DNA from: Halosimplex salinum
GTDB lineage: Archaea > Halobacteriota > Halobacteria > Halobacteriales > Haloarculaceae
NCBI RefSeq assembly: GCF_003730195.1
Contig: NZ_QWGG01000004.1
Coordinates: 186,001 to 250,000 of the forward strand
DNA length: 64,000 bases
Direction of reading: 5' to 3'
The position numbers were made by a program, and so were the translations under genes. The notes under the pieces are model-generated. The model had not been told where the DNA came from. It saw nothing but the letters and a program-made list of their open reading frames with translations, and did no database searches. How positions within the stretch are numbered: the stretch's first letter is position 1; every line of letters starts with the position of its first letter. Below are positions 7,364-16,262 of the stretch, in pieces.

Positions 7364-8092
7364 TCAGTCGGCGGTCGCCGCGCCCTCGCCGACGGCGGCG
7401 TCGACCTCGGCCGTCTCGTCGCTGGCGGCGGCCATGCTGGCGAAGTCGTTGATCGCGATGAGGCCGAAGCCGACCTTCGCGACCACGTCGATGTACGTGA
7501 CGACGAGCGCCGACGTCTCGGTGTCCATGAGGCCGACGCCCGCGGGTGCGAGCACCCAGATCACCGGGTACACCAGCCAGAGGACGACGACGAACGACCT
7601 GAGCTTGCGGAACAGGCTCGCGACGTCGTCCGATTCCTCGGCCGCGAGCGCTTCCGCGTCGGTGAACAACAGATACACGACCGCCGCGAAGCAGACGCTC
7701 CCGACCAGGTACAGCAGCCAGTTCAGCGGCGCGGACAGCGTCGCGCCGACGAACCCGAAGACGACGGTCAGCGCCTGGAGCGTCGCCAGCCGTGCGACGA
7801 GCGCGGTCGACGCACCGACGACGAGCGCGATGACCGCCACGTGGATCGGCGTCGTGAGGAGCCAGTCGACGTACCGGGGGACGTAGACGACGGACCCGCT
7901 GGCCGTCGTGAGTCCCCCGAGTCCGATCGCCATCGCTCCGTAGGCGACCGCGGCGATACCGGGGACGATCGCTGTGAGAGCGAGTATCCGTCGTCGTTCC
8001 GTCGGGACCAGCGTCACGCCGTAGGCCAGCATGACCGTCCCGACGACCATCCCGAGCGTGCCGATGGTGAACCAGGTTGTAATTCCGAGCAT
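7364..8092 (-). CDS. sop2: Sensory rhodopsin II
   Basis: A 242-aa seven-helix retinal protein. Helix C has VPRYVDWLLTTP with Arg73 and the Schiff-base counter-ion Asp76. Helix F has VVLWLVYPVIW with Trp172 and Tyr175. Helix G has YIDVVAKVGFG with Asp202 and retinal Lys206. The proton-donor position is non-acidic (Val87), as in sensory types. Overall it reads like Natronomonas SRII, and it sits 3 bp after its transducer gene, the standard htrII-sopII operon. Odd: the residue before the retinal lysine is Ala205, where SRII proteins normally have Thr or Ser, a position known to matter for signalling. The C-terminus is acidic and Ala-rich. Confidence 0.92.
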   Translation of the reverse strand: MLGITTWFTIGTLGMVVGTVMLAYGVTLVPTERRRILALTAIVPGIAAVAYGAMAIGLGGLTTASGSVVYVPRYVDWLLTTPIHVAVIALVVGASTALVARLATLQALTVVFGFVGATLSAPLNWLLYLVGSVCFAAVVYLLFTDAEALAAEESDDVASLFRKLRSFVVVLWLVYPVIWVLAPAGVGLMDTETSALVVTYIDVVAKVGFGLIAINDFASMAAASDETAEVDAAVGEGAATAD

Positions 8093-8095
8093 TGT

Positions 8096-10387
8096 CTAAT
8101 CGTCAGTCACCGCGGTCGCAGTCGATCCCGCGCTCCCGCCGCCCGTCCGCGTCTCGAAGCGCGACAGTGCCGCCTCCAGCTCGTCCGCTCGCTGACGGAG
8201 GTCCGTCGCCGAGGCCGCGACCTCGTCGATGGACTGGGACTGGTCGTCGGCCGCCCCGGCCACCGTGTCCGCCTCGGTCGCGGTCTGCTGGCTGATCGCC
8301 GTCAGCGCGTCGATCGTCTCCATCACTTCCTGCGCCGTCCGCGCCTGCTCCTCGGTCGCGTCGTCGATCTCCTGGATGCCGGTGTCGACCTCCTCGGTGT
8401 ACTCGACGATGGTCTCCAGCGCGTCGACGGCTTCCTCGACCGTCCCCACGCCGTCGGTGACCCGCTGACTCGTCGACTCCATCGTGTCGACCGTCTCGCT
8501 GGCCTGCGACTGGATCCCGTCGATGCGGTCCTCGATGTCGCCCGCGGCGTCCTTGGTCTCCTCGGCCAGCCCCTTGATCTCGTCGGCGACGACGGCGAAG
8601 CCGGCGCCGTCGCCGTCGGCGTGTGCCGCCTCGATCGAGGCGTTCAGCGCCAGCATGTTCGTCTGCTCGACGATCTCCGTGATGACGCTCACGATCTGTC
8701 CGATCTCGTCGAGTTCGTCGTCGAGGTCGTTGATCGCGCGGACGGTCTCGTCGGTCTCGCCCTCGATGGCGCTCATCTCCTCGATGGCGCGCTGTGCGGC
8801 CTCGCGGCCCTCCTCGCCGACCTCGGCGGCCTGGTTGGAGGTCGTCGCGACCTCCTGTGCGGAGGAGGCGACCTGCTGGGCCGTCGCCGAGAGGTTCTCC
8901 ATCTCACCGGCGGCGCCCTCGAGGCGTTCGGACTGCTCGGTCGTCCCGTCGAAGATCTCCGCGATGGAGGCGGTCACCTGCTCGCTCGCGCGGTCGACCC
9001 GCTCGGCGTTGGTCCCGACCTGTTCGCTGGAGGCCGACACGTCGCCGGCGAAGGACTTCATCTCCGCGATGGTCTCCTCGAGCGCGTCGAGCGTCGCGTT
9101 GATGCTCTCGCCGACCGACGTCATCGACGCGTTCTCGCTCTCGGGCGTCACGCGCTTCGTGAGGTCGCCGTCCGCGGCGTCGGAGAGCACGTCCCCGTAC
9201 TCTGCGGCCTTCGTCTCGAGGTGGGTCGTCATCGACTCCATCTCGGCGGCCTCCTGCTCGGCGCGCTGTCGCGCGTCCTCGGCGTCCTCCCTGGCCGACT
9301 CCGCCTCCGCGATCTTCTCGCGGATGGAGTCGCGCAGGTCCTGGAACGACCGGTAGAGCGCCCCGATCTCGTCCTCTCGGGTGGTCGCCAGGTCGACTTC
9401 GAGGTCGCCGTCGGCCATCGCCTGCGCCCGCTCGGACACCCGTCGCAGCGAGATGAGCGTGTTGCTCCCGATCGTCACCCCGATCAGCCCGAGGTTGATG
9501 ATCGCCAGCAGGACGAGTCCGACGAGGTCGGAGTTGATCTGCGACCCGAGCGCGTAGGCGGTCTCCTTCGGCGAGTGGATCATGACCGTCCAGTCTTTCG
9601 TCTCCATGAGCGTGCTCGCCATGAGCATCTCGCCGTCGTCCATGAACGTCGCGTTCGCGTCCGCGTCCGCTCCCGTCTCCATGCCCGTGGCGTCCTGGTC
9701 GGTCAGGATCCGGCTCTGGTTCGGGTGTGCGACGTACTGGCCGGCGCTGTTGACGACGACGGTCGACGTGTCGCCGTTCGCGTCGCCCAGCGTCTCGGAG
9801 CGGGCCGCGAGGTCGGTCATGAACACGAGCGCGCGGTTCTCGGCACCGGGGACCGGCGTCACGACCGCGATGATCGGGTGGTCGACCGCCGGCACCTCGA
9901 ACGGTTCGGAGACGTACACGTCGTTCGGGCCGTCGAACTGCGGCGGGTCGGTCGCGAAGGGCGCGCCCTGTTCGGCCGGACTCATCCCTTCGAGGTCGTC
10001 GTTCGTGCTCTCGCGGAACACCATCGACTCGGTGTCGAGGTAGTGGATCCCGACCACGTCGGGCGGGACGCTGCCGGACTCGACGAGGTCGGTGAGTTCG
10101 CGGTCGATAGCGTCGCCGTCGCCCGAGCGCATCGTCTCGAGTTGCGACGTGAGGACCGCCTCGCGCTGGACGCTGCCGAGCCACGCGTCGAGTTCGGCCG
10201 TCCGGGTCTCGGAGAGCGTCTTGAGGTCGCTCTCCACGTCCTCCTGCAGCGTCGCGGAGGCCTGCGTGCTGATGACGGCCCCGAACCCGACCATCACCAC
10301 CACGGCCACCGCGAGCGCGACCCCGAGGCGGGCGGCGTACGACCGCCTGATCACTCCGGGAAGAAGAGAGGGTGCATCAGATGTCAT
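8096..10387 (-). CDS. htrII: Sensory rhodopsin II transducer HtrII
   Basis: A 763-aa methyl-accepting transducer. TM1 is about residues 20-41. A large extracellular domain (about 42-280) is followed by TM2 (about 283-305), two HAMP-like segments (about 306-360 and 395-450) and a long coiled coil. The signalling tip, EQTNMLALNASIEAA followed by GAGFAVVADEIKGLAEET, binds CheA/CheW. The size and large extracellular domain match Halobacterium HtrII, which also senses serine, and not the short Natronomonas form, so this receptor probably integrates light and a chemical ligand. The start at 10387 (MTSDAPSLLPG) gives a short cytoplasmic N-terminus; upstream in-frame codons are unlike the family. It is the first gene of the operon with the rhodopsin. 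Confidence 0.92.
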   Translation of the reverse strand: MTSDAPSLLPGVIRRSYAARLGVALAVAVVVMVGFGAVISTQASATLQEDVESDLKTLSETRTAELDAWLGSVQREAVLTSQLETMRSGDGDAIDRELTDLVESGSVPPDVVGIHYLDTESMVFRESTNDDLEGMSPAEQGAPFATDPPQFDGPNDVYVSEPFEVPAVDHPIIAVVTPVPGAENRALVFMTDLAARSETLGDANGDTSTVVVNSAGQYVAHPNQSRILTDQDATGMETGADADANATFMDDGEMLMASTLMETKDWTVMIHSPKETAYALGSQINSDLVGLVLLAIINLGLIGVTIGSNTLISLRRVSERAQAMADGDLEVDLATTREDEIGALYRSFQDLRDSIREKIAEAESAREDAEDARQRAEQEAAEMESMTTHLETKAAEYGDVLSDAADGDLTKRVTPESENASMTSVGESINATLDALEETIAEMKSFAGDVSASSEQVGTNAERVDRASEQVTASIAEIFDGTTEQSERLEGAAGEMENLSATAQQVASSAQEVATTSNQAAEVGEEGREAAQRAIEEMSAIEGETDETVRAINDLDDELDEIGQIVSVITEIVEQTNMLALNASIEAAHADGDGAGFAVVADEIKGLAEETKDAAGDIEDRIDGIQSQASETVDTMESTSQRVTDGVGTVEEAVDALETIVEYTEEVDTGIQEIDDATEEQARTAQEVMETIDALTAISQQTATEADTVAGAADDQSQSIDEVAASATDLRQRADELEAALSRFETRTGGGSAGSTATAVTDD

Positions 10388-10485
10388 CGTCTGGTACAGA
10401 GGAATACTCCGTGTAAAGCGTTCGTACGCGATTCTCAGGGCTGATAGCGGATCGGCGCGGCGCTCGGTCCCTGACGCGCGGCGTG

Positions 10486-12123
10486 TCAGGCGGCGGGCTC
10501 GACCCACACCGGCCCGGCCCACGCCATCCCGTCGTCGGCCTGCTCGACGCGCAGGTAGTACACGTCGGCGTCACTCCCGCGCTCTTCGTCCCAGTGCATC
10601 CCCGTCACCGATCCGTCGTCGACGACCTCGCCGGCGTCCGTGAACGCGTCGAGCCCCGCCGACTCGTCGGCCGTCCCGGCGACGACGTGCCAGTTCTCGT
10701 TGTTCTTGACCACGGTGATCCGTTCGATGGGCGCCGTCCCCGCGACCAGCCACTTTATCGTGCGCTCGCCGTCGGCGGTGACAGTACTATCGTCCTCGCC
10801 GACCGCCGTCCCGTCGACGGAGAACTCCACGAGCGTCCGGTGGGGCTGGCTGGTGCCGTAGACGCGCCGCGAGCGGAGGCTCTCGAAGACGCTCTCCCGC
10901 GAGAGGTCCGACGCGTAGAACCCCGTCAGCCCGCCGGGGTAGCTCCCCTCGTCCCAGATCCGCCAGATGTGGCCCCAGCCAATCCCGTCCTCCCAGATAT
11001 CGGAGAGCGAGGGCAGATGAGGCGGCAGGTGGATGTGCGACCGCCCCGGCCGGGGCGCGTGGAAGTCGGACGACCCCATCATGCCGACGCGATAGCCCAG
11101 TTCGTGGGCGTCCTGGACGTAGTGACCGGGCTCGCCCATCTCGCCCTGCCCCATCTCGACCGGGCGCGGGTTGCCGTCGTCGCGGGGCAGCTCGCTGGAC
11201 CCCCACTGGGAGTACACCTCGACGAGCGGCGCGATGTCGTCGTCGTAGTCGACGTTCGAGAAGTCGAAGGGGTACATCGCCTCGGCGGGGTGGTGCGGAA
11301 TGGCGAGCACGTCGTTGCCCGTCTCCTCGCGCCAGTCCTGCAGGCGGCGGAACAGCTTCTCGTAGCGGTTCGTGTCGGTGTCGAGCGAGTCGAACAGCTC
11401 GGCCTCGTCGACGCCCTCGAAGTAGACGTTGACGTGTCCGCCCATGTTCGGCTGTTTCGTCCACTCGTAACCGAACAGCGTCACGAACTCGCCGGGGTCG
11501 TGGAAGTGCTTCGTGACGGTCTTCATCCGCTCGAAGTATTTCCGGTGCATCCGCCGGCGCTGGAGCTTCGGCGGGATGAAGAATCCCATCGTGTCGTGGT
11601 CCGTGTAGGCCACGACGTCGAGGTCCATCACGTCGCGGCCGAACTCGAACCCCTTGCTCATCGAGCCCGCGCCGTCGGAGAACTGCGAGTGGAGGTGGAT
11701 GTCACCCCAGTAGAGGCGATACTCCGGTTCCGCCGCGAAGACCTGCACCGGGTTGCTGACGAACCGGCGACCCCGCTCGTCGGTGAGGACGAGGTACTGC
11801 ACGCCGGGCGTCTCGAAGGTGATTCCCTCCAGTTCGGTGACCGCCTCGTCGGTCAACTCGAAGTCGAGTCGCTCGGGGTGGATCGCCTCCGGGTCGGTGC
11901 TCTCGACCGTGAATTCGCCGTCGTACTCGGGGAGGAGGCGGAGGTACTCGTCCCAGACGGAGATCGTGGCCGACAGCGGTTCGGTGGTGACGACGCGCGA
12001 GGGGAGGACGCACTCCACGTCGTCGAACTGCCGGCGGCGGCCCCGCGCGAGTTCGGAGAGCGAGGGGTTGTTCTCGGCGAAGACCTTCACCGATTCGAGG
12101 GCCTTCGTCAGCATCGAGACCAC
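10486..12123 (-). CDS. DUF3604 / PHP-type metal-dependent phosphoesterase-like protein
   Basis: A 545-aa protein. Residues 1-140 form a beta-rich domain. From about residue 140 comes a PHP-type active site: YWGDIHLHSQFSDG, then VVAYTDHD, AIPHHPAEAMY, VEVYSQWGSSE and GMMGSSDFHAPRPG. These supply the histidines and aspartates of a trinuclear metal site. A beta-rich C-terminal domain follows. The order fits DUF3604, a family found in many archaea and bacteria without an assigned substrate. An internal ATG at 12114 is an alternative start. The gene precedes htrII in the same direction, with a 98-bp gap that should hold the transducer promoter, so co-transcription is not required. Confidence 0.8.
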   Translation of the reverse strand: MVSMLTKALESVKVFAENNPSLSELARGRRRQFDDVECVLPSRVVTTEPLSATISVWDEYLRLLPEYDGEFTVESTDPEAIHPERLDFELTDEAVTELEGITFETPGVQYLVLTDERGRRFVSNPVQVFAAEPEYRLYWGDIHLHSQFSDGAGSMSKGFEFGRDVMDLDVVAYTDHDTMGFFIPPKLQRRRMHRKYFERMKTVTKHFHDPGEFVTLFGYEWTKQPNMGGHVNVYFEGVDEAELFDSLDTDTNRYEKLFRRLQDWREETGNDVLAIPHHPAEAMYPFDFSNVDYDDDIAPLVEVYSQWGSSELPRDDGNPRPVEMGQGEMGEPGHYVQDAHELGYRVGMMGSSDFHAPRPGRSHIHLPPHLPSLSDIWEDGIGWGHIWRIWDEGSYPGGLTGFYASDLSRESVFESLRSRRVYGTSQPHRTLVEFSVDGTAVGEDDSTVTADGERTIKWLVAGTAPIERITVVKNNENWHVVAGTADESAGLDAFTDAGEVVDDGSVTGMHWDEERGSDADVYYLRVEQADDGMAWAGPVWVEPAA

Positions 12124-12361: not shown

Positions 12362-13897
12362 ATGACAGAGGAGAGCGACCCAGCCGGCGAGCGCGGAGGC
12401 TCGGCCCACGGTGACGAGCACGACCCGTTGCTCGCTGTGGTCGCCGACCCAGAGCGAGGTCGTCAGCATCTCCCACATCTCCTGCGCCTGATCGACGCCG
12501 ACGACCCGGTACAGCGACTGCGCGGTGCGCTCGCGCTCTGTCTCGCGGTCGAGGCGTCGCCGGAGCTGCTCGAGCCCGTCGTCCGGCGGCTAGTCGACCG
12601 CCTGGACGACGACTCGCCGGTCGAGATCCCGCACGCGCTCGACTATCTGGCCGCCCGACGGCCGAAGGCGGTCGACGAGGCAGTCACCGATCTCGCGGCG
12701 GACGCGCAGGTCGGTGCACGCCAGCAACTCTACCAGTCCGGCGCCGGCTACGGCCGCAACGAGTACCGCACCGCCTCCGGCCTCGACGCCGGCGGCGGCC
12801 GAACGCCGTCGGACCGGGACGAGCGCACAACCGACCGGAACCAGGTCTACCGCGACGACCCGCGGAGAGACGGTCTCGACGGGCAGACGGACGGTCTCGA
12901 CGGGCAGACGGACGAGGAGACAGGTGGTGACGGCGGGGGCAGTCGAGCGGAGGACGCGGATGGGTCCGGCGACGCGGATAGGGGTGAGGAGACCGACGCG
13001 GACGAGAGCGACGAGTCCGACGTAACTCGGGGGACGCTCGCGCTCGTGGCTCGGCGGCTGTCGGCCGTGGTGGAGCGGAGTCAGTTCGACGACCTGAACG
13101 TCCTCACGGAGCGACGGCGCGAGCGCTTCGGCGACCGCTACCGGGCGGTCGGCGTGGTCGACGGCGTGGAGACGCCACTCGCGCTGTACGTCTTCCGCAT
13201 CCCCGAGGGCGACGACGCGGCGTTCGCCGGCAACGTGCGTCAGGCGATGGGCGCCTGGGCCGGCGTCGACGACCACGACTCCGTCCTGACGGTCCGCGAC
13301 TGGGACCTCCGACCCCGTCCGTGGGCGGCCGTCGAACACACGGGGCTGACGCTGGTCGACCGCGACGCCCTTCCGCCCGCGGAAGCCGTCGCGAACGCGG
13401 TCGACCTCGCCGGCGCCGTCGCGCACGCCCACCAGCGCGGCGTCGTCCACGGCGCCATCGACCCCGAGACCGTCGCCTACCCCGGCGCCACGCTCACCGA
13501 GACGGAGCGCCAGCGCCCGCGACTGTCCGCGCTCGGCCTCGCCCGCGTCTACGCCGTCCGCATCGGCCTCGCGAACTGCCTCGACCTGCGCTACGCCGCG
13601 CCGGAATACTACGAGACCCGCTTCGGCAGCGTCGACCACACGACCGACGTGTACGCCCTCGGCGCCCTGCTCTACCGCCTGACGACCGGCGAAGCACCCT
13701 ATCGAGGGTCGCCCGAGGAGATCAGGACCGGCGTCCTCTCGGACCGGGTGCCGGTCCCCAGCGAGGTCGACCCCGACCTCCCCGCCGGCCTCGACCAGGT
13801 CGTCAGGAAGGCGATGGCACCCCACCGACTCACGAGATACGAAACGGTCAACCACTTCCGGCGGGAACTGCGGGGTGTCGATACCGATGGCGCGTGA
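12362..13897 (+). CDS. Pseudokinase-like protein with acidic linker
   Basis: A 511-aa protein. Residues about 20-125 look like short helical (HEAT-like) repeats. About 130-220 is a disordered Asp/Gly/Thr linker containing a perfect 21-bp tandem duplication (DGLDGQT twice). About 250-505 is a Ser/Thr-kinase fold. Kinase landmarks that remain are YAAPEYYETRFG (APE) and TTDVYALGALLYRLTTGEAPY (helix F and G). Catalytic residues are missing: beta-3 Lys is Tyr in LALYVFR (about 274), HRD reads VHGAID without the Asp (about 361), and no DFG is seen (LSALGLARVY). A scaffold or sensor role is therefore likelier than phosphotransfer. It overlaps the next gene by 11 bp. Confidence 0.78.
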   Translation: MTEESDPAGERGGSAHGDEHDPLLAVVADPERGRQHLPHLLRLIDADDPVQRLRGALALCLAVEASPELLEPVVRRLVDRLDDDSPVEIPHALDYLAARRPKAVDEAVTDLAADAQVGARQQLYQSGAGYGRNEYRTASGLDAGGGRTPSDRDERTTDRNQVYRDDPRRDGLDGQTDGLDGQTDEETGGDGGGSRAEDADGSGDADRGEETDADESDESDVTRGTLALVARRLSAVVERSQFDDLNVLTERRRERFGDRYRAVGVVDGVETPLALYVFRIPEGDDAAFAGNVRQAMGAWAGVDDHDSVLTVRDWDLRPRPWAAVEHTGLTLVDRDALPPAEAVANAVDLAGAVAHAHQRGVVHGAIDPETVAYPGATLTETERQRPRLSALGLARVYAVRIGLANCLDLRYAAPEYYETRFGSVDHTTDVYALGALLYRLTTGEAPYRGSPEEIRTGVLSDRVPVPSEVDPDLPAGLDQVVRKAMAPHRLTRYETVNHFRRELRGVDTDGA

Positions 13898-14624
13898 CGT
13901 GGAGTTCGGCCTCTATCTCGTCGCCGACGACCCCAACCTGACGTTCATCGCCTTCGTCGGTCTGGTCCTCCTCGCGGTGATCGCCGCCCGCTTCGGCGCC
14001 TACGCCTACTTCAACATGCACGCCACCGACGTGACCGCCCAGCGCGTCCTCTGGGAGTACCTCCTCTACGTCGGCGTCGTCGCCGCCGTGTACGGCGCTG
14101 TCGGCATCCTCGAGATCGTCTCCTCTGTCCAGACGCCCTACAGGAGCGGCGTCATGCTCGCCGTCGTCCTCCTGCTCTCGCTCTCGGTCCGCGAGATCCA
14201 CTTCAACGCCTCGCTCTCGACGGGCGCCGGCGAGCGCACGGCCTTCCCCGGCCGCCGCCTCCTCGAGATCGGGTTCGTCGGCGTCGTAGCGGCCGTCGTC
14301 TTCGGCGTCGCCGTCCTCGGCCTCCGCGACTCCCTGCTCGCGCTGCAGGGCGTCGGCGCGCTCGCCATCGCCGGCTACGGATTCTGGTTCAGCCGCCAGC
14401 AGACCACCGAGACGATGGTCCAGGGGACGATGATCGACTCCCTGCTCCGGCACCTCCTCCCCGTCCTCGCCTTCGCCACGCTCGTCCCCGCCGTCGACCT
14501 GGCCACCGTCGCCGGTCTCGACCGCGTCGTCGTCGTGCACGTCCAGGTCGTCTTCGTCATCATGACCGCCACCGCCCTCATGACCGCGACCATCAAACTC
14601 CGGCAGAATCTGGCGAGTCTGTGA
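13887..14624 (+). CDS. Polytopic membrane protein, unknown
   Basis: A protein of about 245 aa with seven or so hydrophobic helices, a conserved-looking loop (VREIHFNASLSTG) between the third and fourth, and an HVQVVFVIMTATALMTATI final helix. I do not recognise the family; the charge pattern loosely recalls histidine-kinase sensor or 7TM receptor modules, but there is no attached domain. ATG 13887 (MARDVEFGLYL) lies inside the 3' end of the pseudokinase gene (11-bp overlap), so the two are very probably co-translated and may work together at the membrane. Repeat copy B begins 24 bp after its stop. Confidence 0.68.
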   Translation: MARDVEFGLYLVADDPNLTFIAFVGLVLLAVIAARFGAYAYFNMHATDVTAQRVLWEYLLYVGVVAAVYGAVGILEIVSSVQTPYRSGVMLAVVLLLSLSVREIHFNASLSTGAGERTAFPGRRLLEIGFVGVVAAVVFGVAVLGLRDSLLALQGVGALAIAGYGFWFSRQQTTETMVQGTMIDSLLRHLLPVLAFATLVPAVDLATVAGLDRVVVVHVQVVFVIMTATALMTATIKLRQNLASL

Positions 14625-15782: not shown

Positions 15783-16262
15783 AGCGGACTACGCCCGGCG
15801 ACGAAAGCCCTCGGCTCGCTCGCTAGCAGTCTCGACTACTGCAAACGACAGCAAGCGACGAACCCCCTCGGCTCGCTCGCTAGCAGTCTCGACTACTGCA
15901 AACGGCAGCAAGCGACGAACCCCCTCGGCTCGCTCGCGCGGTCTGTGCGGGATATCCTCGCTGCGCTCGGATAGGGCCCGCGCAGACCGCGCGACCGCGC
16001 CTCGCCGTTTCAGTCCACCGGAAGACTCACTCCGTTCGTCTTCCGAGCCCTGACTCGCTCCGCTCGTCAGGACGCCAGGGACCGCAACTGCACCGCAAAC
16101 CGCCTCACACCTCCCCAGCCGATTCACTCGGTCGCTCCGCTCCCTCGTTCATCCACCGGAAGACTCCCTCCGGTCGTCTTCCGAGCCTTCGCTCGTTTCA
16201 CTCGCGAAGACCTCGCGCGGCTACGGCTCGCGATGAAACGCGAGCCAGCGCGCGCCACCGCA
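15783..16262 (-). repeat. Dispersed structured non-coding element, copy C (reverse)
   Basis: An inverted copy filling most of the gap between the GDPD and SDR genes. Read on the minus strand it starts with the GGCTCGCG/CGCGAGCC hairpin (16225-16246), an optional GGAAGAC/GTCTTCC hairpin near 16158-16182, the invariant 20-nt block (16103-16122 reversed), a second GGAAGAC/GTCTTCC hairpin (16020-16044), GGACTGAAA, and a stem of 11 bp (15941-15951 with 15977-15987) with a single C-A mismatch on this strand, enclosing CTAT and ATAT. The 3' module is repeated about three times with a 57-bp period. Confidence 0.8.
15811..15937. repeat. 57-bp tandem repeat inside copy C
   Basis: Two full 57-bp units start at TCGG 15811 and 15868, and a partial third starts at 15925. 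The units are nearly identical (CGACAG versus CGGCAG is one difference). Each unit contains the element's 3'-end module (CCTCGGCTCGCTCGCTAGC on the plus strand). The period is a multiple of three, which leaves an open frame across it, but that frame has no start context or protein character. Confidence 0.85.

Follow-up and report, generated by a model that had tools for sequence, protein, structure and literature searches.

Pseudokinases have mostly been studied in eukaryotes and bacteria. The eukaryotic proteins SCYL and Vps15 combine a kinase fold with HEAT repeats and have a scaffold role; their HEAT repeats lie C-terminal to the kinase, and no seven-helix (7TM) protein is known to be co-encoded with them. 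Among bacteria, MviN and EssB are pseudokinases tied to membranes and described as having scaffold roles in the available text of one source (PMC12599244). The window analysed here, a stretch of 64,000 nucleotides from the archaeon Halosimplex salinum, contains a gene for a kinase-like protein, K, followed by the gene of a 7TM protein, M (Table 1), and K resembles each of these systems in part. Like SCYL and Vps15 it joins a kinase fold to a HEAT-like region, but its helical domain is N-terminal. Like the MviN (MurJ) pseudokinase of Mycobacterium (ActPs3 family), for which scaffolding and not catalysis is described (PMC12599244), it has a dead STK domain of bacterial type that goes with a multi-helix membrane protein. 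The MviN pseudokinase, however, is fused to MurJ in one chain, whereas K is encoded separately, carries its HEAT-like domain at the N-terminus and has an unrelated 7TM protein as partner. With EssB/YukC, the pseudokinase of type VIIb secretion, which also works at the membrane, K shares a degraded Gly loop and the loss of all three motifs (PMC12599244). EssB/YukC differs from K in that it crosses the membrane once, belongs to a secretion machine and is not known to have a HEAT domain or a 7TM partner gene. Our search of the open-access literature on archaeal and haloarchaeal pseudokinases, archaeal HEAT kinases and 7TM-kinase pairs found no description of a pair of this type, which fits the original prediction that such pairs are rarely described in archaea. 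The K-M module appears so far unstudied.

Table 1. Features of the K-M locus (positions within the 64,000-nucleotide window).
Feature	Position	Strand	Details
K, HEAT-pseudokinase gene	12362..13897	+	ATG 12362, stop 13895-13897, 511 aa
HEAT-like helical domain of K	12425..12736	+	residues 22-125; AF2 helices
Acidic, disordered, fast-evolving linker of K	12740..13027	+	residues 127-222
Linker motif in K, degenerate	12797..12805	+	GRT, residues 146-148, Gly before; loose form only
21-bp direct tandem duplication in K linker	12869..12914	+	2.2 copies, 100% matches
Pseudokinase domain of K	13028..13876	+	residues 223-505; Pfam, AF2, Foldseek, VIA-align
Tyr276 of K, beta-3 Lys position	13187..13189	+	motif reading
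Ala365 of K, HRD Asp position	13454..13456	+	HRD = HGA
Ala390 of K, DFG Asp position	13529..13531	+	DFG = ALG
K/M gene overlap, 11 bp	13887..13897	+	M ATG inside 3' end of K
M, seven-helix membrane protein gene	13887..14624	+	245 aa
TM6-TM7 of M, most conserved part	14430..14618	+	residues 182-244

By its modelled fold, K is a member of the protein kinase superfamily. The Pfam Pkinase profile (PF00069) matches it at 35.1 bits, above the cut-off of 31.7, and a sequence comparison with the PDB retrieves PknB (E 4.1e-14). The AF2 model, built on an alignment of 50 sequences (mean pLDDT 79.4) and with a kinase domain beginning at residue 223, finds kinase structures in the PDB at E 1.7e-12 with Foldseek, and VIA-align superposes 257 of its residues on PknB/Stk1-type kinases (Z 29.1, rmsd 2.4 Å). 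This bears out the kinase fold of the original prediction, which had named an AlphaFold model as the way to check it. The Hanks-type kinases PknB and Stk1 are thus the closest solved fold of the domain; they are active, whereas K is without the catalytic residues. Its beta-3 strand (residues 269-278, VETPLALYVF) contains no Lys. We inspected this strand directly because in the single-reference alignment the column of the beta-3 Lys is shifted by two residues relative to the motif; K has no Lys there either way. Alanines stand at the positions of the HRD and DFG Asp, the glycine loop is gone, and the alpha-C helix contains no Glu. The APE motif (413-415), helix-F Asp429 and helix-I Arg492 are retained. 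The losses (beta-3 Lys, HRD Asp and DFG Asp) and the retained APE and helix-F features are those that had been predicted. Judged by its sequence, K lacks the three residues by which active protein kinases are recognised (beta-3 Lys, HRD Asp and DFG Asp) and is a pseudokinase, the catalytic motifs having been lost in a domain that is conserved and under selection.

The relatives of K encoded next to an M gene have lost these residues to different degrees. The HRD Asp is missing in 72/72 paired kinases (50 from Haloarculaceae and 22 from other families), all of which retain the APE Glu, the helix-F Asp and the helix-I Arg. The DFG Asp is retained in 9 of the 50 Haloarculaceae kinases and in 11 of the 22 from other families, and a Lys lies within the beta-3 segment in 8/72, six of them in a plausible register. 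Given this graded loss, K is the end of a series and not an isolated accident.

N-terminal to the kinase domain, the AF2 model has eight helices with high pLDDT. These helices fit the HEAT-like fusion claimed for K, which is conserved and under selection; the Pfam profile HEAT_2 matches 7 of the 50 K orthologues (best 3e-6) and does not match the K of Halosimplex salinum itself. The linker that follows has an Asp plus Glu content of 30% and a pLDDT mostly below 50, in agreement with its description as acidic. The 21-bp tandem duplication reported in it is real but carries no weight for the interpretation: the repeat unit was found in 0/6 other Halosimplex loci, which makes it a species-private expansion in a fast-evolving linker. 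Another tandem repeat, of 57 bp (2.5 copies, 96% matches), lies at window positions 15798-15937, just past a GDPD gene, and several frames are open in it because 57 is a multiple of 3.

The gene downstream of K had been predicted to overlap it by 11 bp and to encode a multi-helix membrane protein, and both statements hold: the AF2 model of M has seven long helices (mean pLDDT 88.2), and a start of M overlapping the stop of K is possible in 42 of the 50 paired Haloarculaceae loci, as would suit translational coupling. No Pfam, NCBIfam or PADLOC family was reached by M. Its seven-helix arrangement may resemble that of microbial rhodopsins and GPCRs. VIA-align superposes the model on GPCRs with Z values reaching 16.9 (216 residues at rmsd 4.4, at Foldseek E >1e-3), and the Foldseek search returned nothing at E<=1e-3, its best matches being chains of sensory rhodopsin II (SRII; 3qap, E 4.2e-3, 18-20% identity). 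Aligned as families with hhalign, M and SRII reach a probability of about 1%, and M has no Pfam match to the Bac_rhodopsin profile, which scores 181.8 bits against the SRII encoded in the window. In microbial rhodopsins the Schiff-base Lys sits in the middle of helix 7, whereas TM7 of M (213-244) has a single Lys, Lys237, near its C-terminal end and none in mid-helix. On the Foldseek E and the hhalign probability, we rejected the idea of M as a degenerate sensory rhodopsin as a demonstrated homology. The N-terminus of M is acidic and its C-terminus basic, which would fit an orientation with the N-terminus out and the C-terminus in. Information is concentrated in the first half of TM6 and the second half of TM7, and conservation peaks at residues of their cytoplasmic ends, as modelled; over the whole protein, conservation of the cytoplasmic and extracellular halves did not differ significantly (p 0.20). 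Fifteen further loci (L204-L218) encode remote paralogues of M with a conserved WTTWR-like tail and no kinase near, an unnamed 7TM-like family related to M.

Among 146 Haloarculaceae genomes, K-like matches (E<=1e-15) occur in 64 and M matches (E<=0.001) in 55. In 50 of the 57 places where M was found, a K match lies directly upstream on the same strand, and the pairing follows the strength of the M match: 48/50 at E<1e-40, 2/2 at E of about 1e-16 to 1e-18, and 0/5 for weaker or fragmentary matches. Well-matched M genes thus stand directly downstream of a K-family kinase in 50 of 52 cases, the two strong loci without an adjacent kinase match being L128 (G123) and L138 (G136, on a short contig). 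These counts leave out the 15 remote paralogue loci, all of them without a kinase, as well as a partial M match without a kinase match (L219). In G039 and G123 the M gene has no K beside it, and one locus whose sequence begins 272 bp upstream of M (L191) was scored as a non-pair. A class-wide sample gave M matches in 109/391 genomes, 75 of them with E<1e-20 (35 in Haloarculaceae and 40 in four other families). We inspected 24 of these 40 and found a kinase upstream of M in 22, within 200 bp in 16 cases and at 407-1125 bp in six; one of the other two has no kinase and one lies at a contig edge. In a phylum-wide sample, M occurs in 25/392 genomes, all within Halobacteriales. In Halobacteriales, K and M form a conserved module of two genes, and the genomic survey that the original prediction had proposed is answered by 50/52 loci in Haloarculaceae and 22/24 in four other families. 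Outside Haloarculaceae the neighbouring genes include RGP-like genes, ABC transporter parts, a HalX response regulator, a KaiC-like gene and a sulfatase; they vary by family and suggest no common pathway.

Both genes are under purifying selection. Over 17 close pairs, omega is 0.08-0.35 in the kinase domain and 0.09-0.33 in M, and reaches 1.19 in the linker; within the genus, K is conserved at 62-66% and M at 80-83%. The coupling of K to a membrane protein, as predicted, extends across five families in which M adjoins K. A quick tree of 72 rows, in which three rows are very long (L017, L018 and L022) and 29 of 69 branches are open, gathers the paired kinases into a single group of 63 rows (SH-aLRT 86), within which 15 unpaired rows are nested; paired status requires 7 changes on the tree, against 20.5 in shuffles. 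Four unpaired relatives outside this group (L012, L026, L027 and L028) keep the Gly loop, the beta-3 Lys, HLDLKP and DWG. Other unpaired rows (L014, L015, L029 and paralogues) are also without the HRD Asp, so that its loss is not strictly tied to pairing. Among the 28 unpaired HEAT-pseudokinase paralogues examined in Haloarculaceae, 27 lack the HRD Asp and none has an M-like gene nearby; since such paralogues exist, K-like proteins can work without M. The genome of Halosimplex salinum also encodes an intact-looking kinase (L031, G000:C23:141759-142442, with GEGGFAKVF, VALKYP, YRDLKPDN and DFN), in which a C-terminal stretch resembles an FHA domain by eye. A role of the locus as a defence system was rejected, since the PADLOC matches (PD-T4-6, MkoA, mad6 and PglW) reflect the generic kinase domain and none concerns M.

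What distinguishes paired from unpaired kinases lies mostly outside the kinase domain. We compared 48 of the 50 paired Haloarculaceae kinases (L145 and L146 left out) with the 28 unpaired paralogues. At positions conserved in at least 80% of the paired kinases, the unpaired ones have the same residue with a mean frequency of 0.83 for the kinase domain, as against 0.49 for the HEAT domain and 0.21 for the linker (HEAT and linker against kinase domain, Mann-Whitney p 4.9e-7). Most of the residues conserved only in paired kinases are in the HEAT domain (P38, R52, L53, D79, R80, A92, Y95 and P101). The linker motif [VILMA]GR[TVAI], which was written after the sequences had been seen, is present in 41/48 paired and 1/28 unpaired Haloarculaceae kinases, compared with 4% and 7% of shuffled linkers. 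A narrower linker pattern has only 12 Haloarculaceae matches, and a related pattern was found in 0/22 paired kinases of the outgroup. This pair-specific conservation suggests that K may dock through its HEAT domain and linker.

K and M probably work together as a non-enzymatic module, because their genes are almost always adjacent in several families. We incline, with slightly better than even confidence, to the view that K is a non-catalytic HEAT-pseudokinase adaptor and the soluble partner of the 7TM protein M. The seven helices of M would be set in the membrane with the modelled N-terminus out and C-terminus in, and M would change state in response to a cue from the membrane or from the cell's surroundings. 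K, with its HEAT-like domain, flexible acidic linker and dead kinase domain, would be a soluble partner docking on the cytoplasmic side of M, probably with its HEAT domain and linker motif, after which the pseudokinase domain, as an allosteric scaffold, would bind or release a further partner. We infer the physical complex of K and M, its docking surface, the direction of the signal, the ligand and the output, and we hypothesise that the pair signals. The original prediction is upheld in part: the pseudokinase, the HEAT-like fusion and the membrane coupling are conserved and selected, but allosteric signalling between two proteins that bind each other is a hypothesis. In a mirror-tree comparison, the distances of K and M are no better correlated (r 0.852) than those of K and SRII (0.858) or of M and SRII.

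The genes next to the pair raise the question of whether it serves phototaxis. In the window, SRII and an HtrII-type transducer are encoded divergently upstream (7364-10396, minus strand), and K and M might be accessories of this system. The same arrangement, SRII and HtrII upstream in opposite orientation, is seen in 38 of the 50 Haloarculaceae pair loci, and the genome counts (pair and SRII 40, pair only 10, SRII only 29, neither 67, among 146) give a Fisher p of 9.9e-9 with kinship ignored. Yet SRII occurs without the pair in those 29 genomes, 7 of the 10 pair-only genomes still have the pair beside the same TFB gene, and SRII was found near 0/24 of the outgroup pair or M loci. The position is thus old and shared and the pair independent of SRII; as the pair persists without SRII-HtrII, it is not merely a phototaxis accessory. 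Pair and SRII were lost independently, and we rejected this role as the main reading and judge it improbable. A C-terminal scrap of M on an SRII-bearing contig (G114:C77:21416-21565) and a scrap of SRII directly upstream of the kinase in G069 (L140:5394-5531) point to independent decay of the two systems. Between HtrII and K, the window also encodes a CehA/McbA-like (DUF3604) metallohydrolase (10486-12123, minus strand), which occupies this spot in five loci of Halosimplex and a single locus outside that genus (G109), but in 0/46 other loci searched.

Other readings concern the activities of the two proteins. K could still have enzymatic activity by way of relocated or atypical residues (Asp367, for example), or by another nucleotidyl transfer as in SelO. 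An Asp two residues past the HRD Asp position is present in 47/50 Haloarculaceae kinases but in only 3/22 outgroup kinases, and the plausible beta-3 Lys of six basal or outgroup sequences (G139, G144, G200, G216, G273 and G378) has to be set against K itself, which has neither Gly loop nor beta-3 Lys, no DFG Asp and no alpha-C Glu; an enzymatic K therefore seems very improbable. That K is decaying and has no function is scarcely credible: a linker omega close to or exceeding 1 in some pairs and the lower conservation of K than M within the genus would agree with decay, but the selection on the kinase domain, the open frames and the pairing across five families contradict it. A further reading keeps the partnership but not the signalling, K being an assembly, stability or gating factor and M a transporter or membrane enzyme instead of a receptor. 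M has no known sensor domain or ligand, its 7TM fold similarity does not show a receptor, and single relatives of M have weak Pfam matches, far below the cut-offs, which are partly to transport families. The MviN pseudokinase, the best-known bacterial counterpart, regulates a membrane protein of cell-wall synthesis according to the available text (PMC12599244). We nevertheless hold this reading to be unlikely, since no transporter or enzyme family reaches the cut-off for M and its top-conserved residues, which the model sets where TM6 and TM7 end on the cytoplasmic side, may form a docking face.

If K is indeed an adaptor of M, the pair might be a two-gene receptor system of Halobacteriales, a proposal we make tentatively. 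A GPCR- or rhodopsin-shaped 7TM protein without retinal would signal through a dead kinase docked to it with HEAT domain and linker motif, in an archaeal receptor-pseudokinase pathway separate from two-component and chemotaxis systems. The origin of the system would lie in active haloarchaeal kinases, the HRD Asp having been lost in the mostly paired lineage. Haloarcula and Halobacterium have workable genetics, so that the two genes can be put to the test as a defined pair. With a dead kinase and one particular 7TM protein paired in at least five families of the order, beside apparently active relatives, the lineage would offer a natural series for testing the change of a kinase into a non-catalytic membrane partner.
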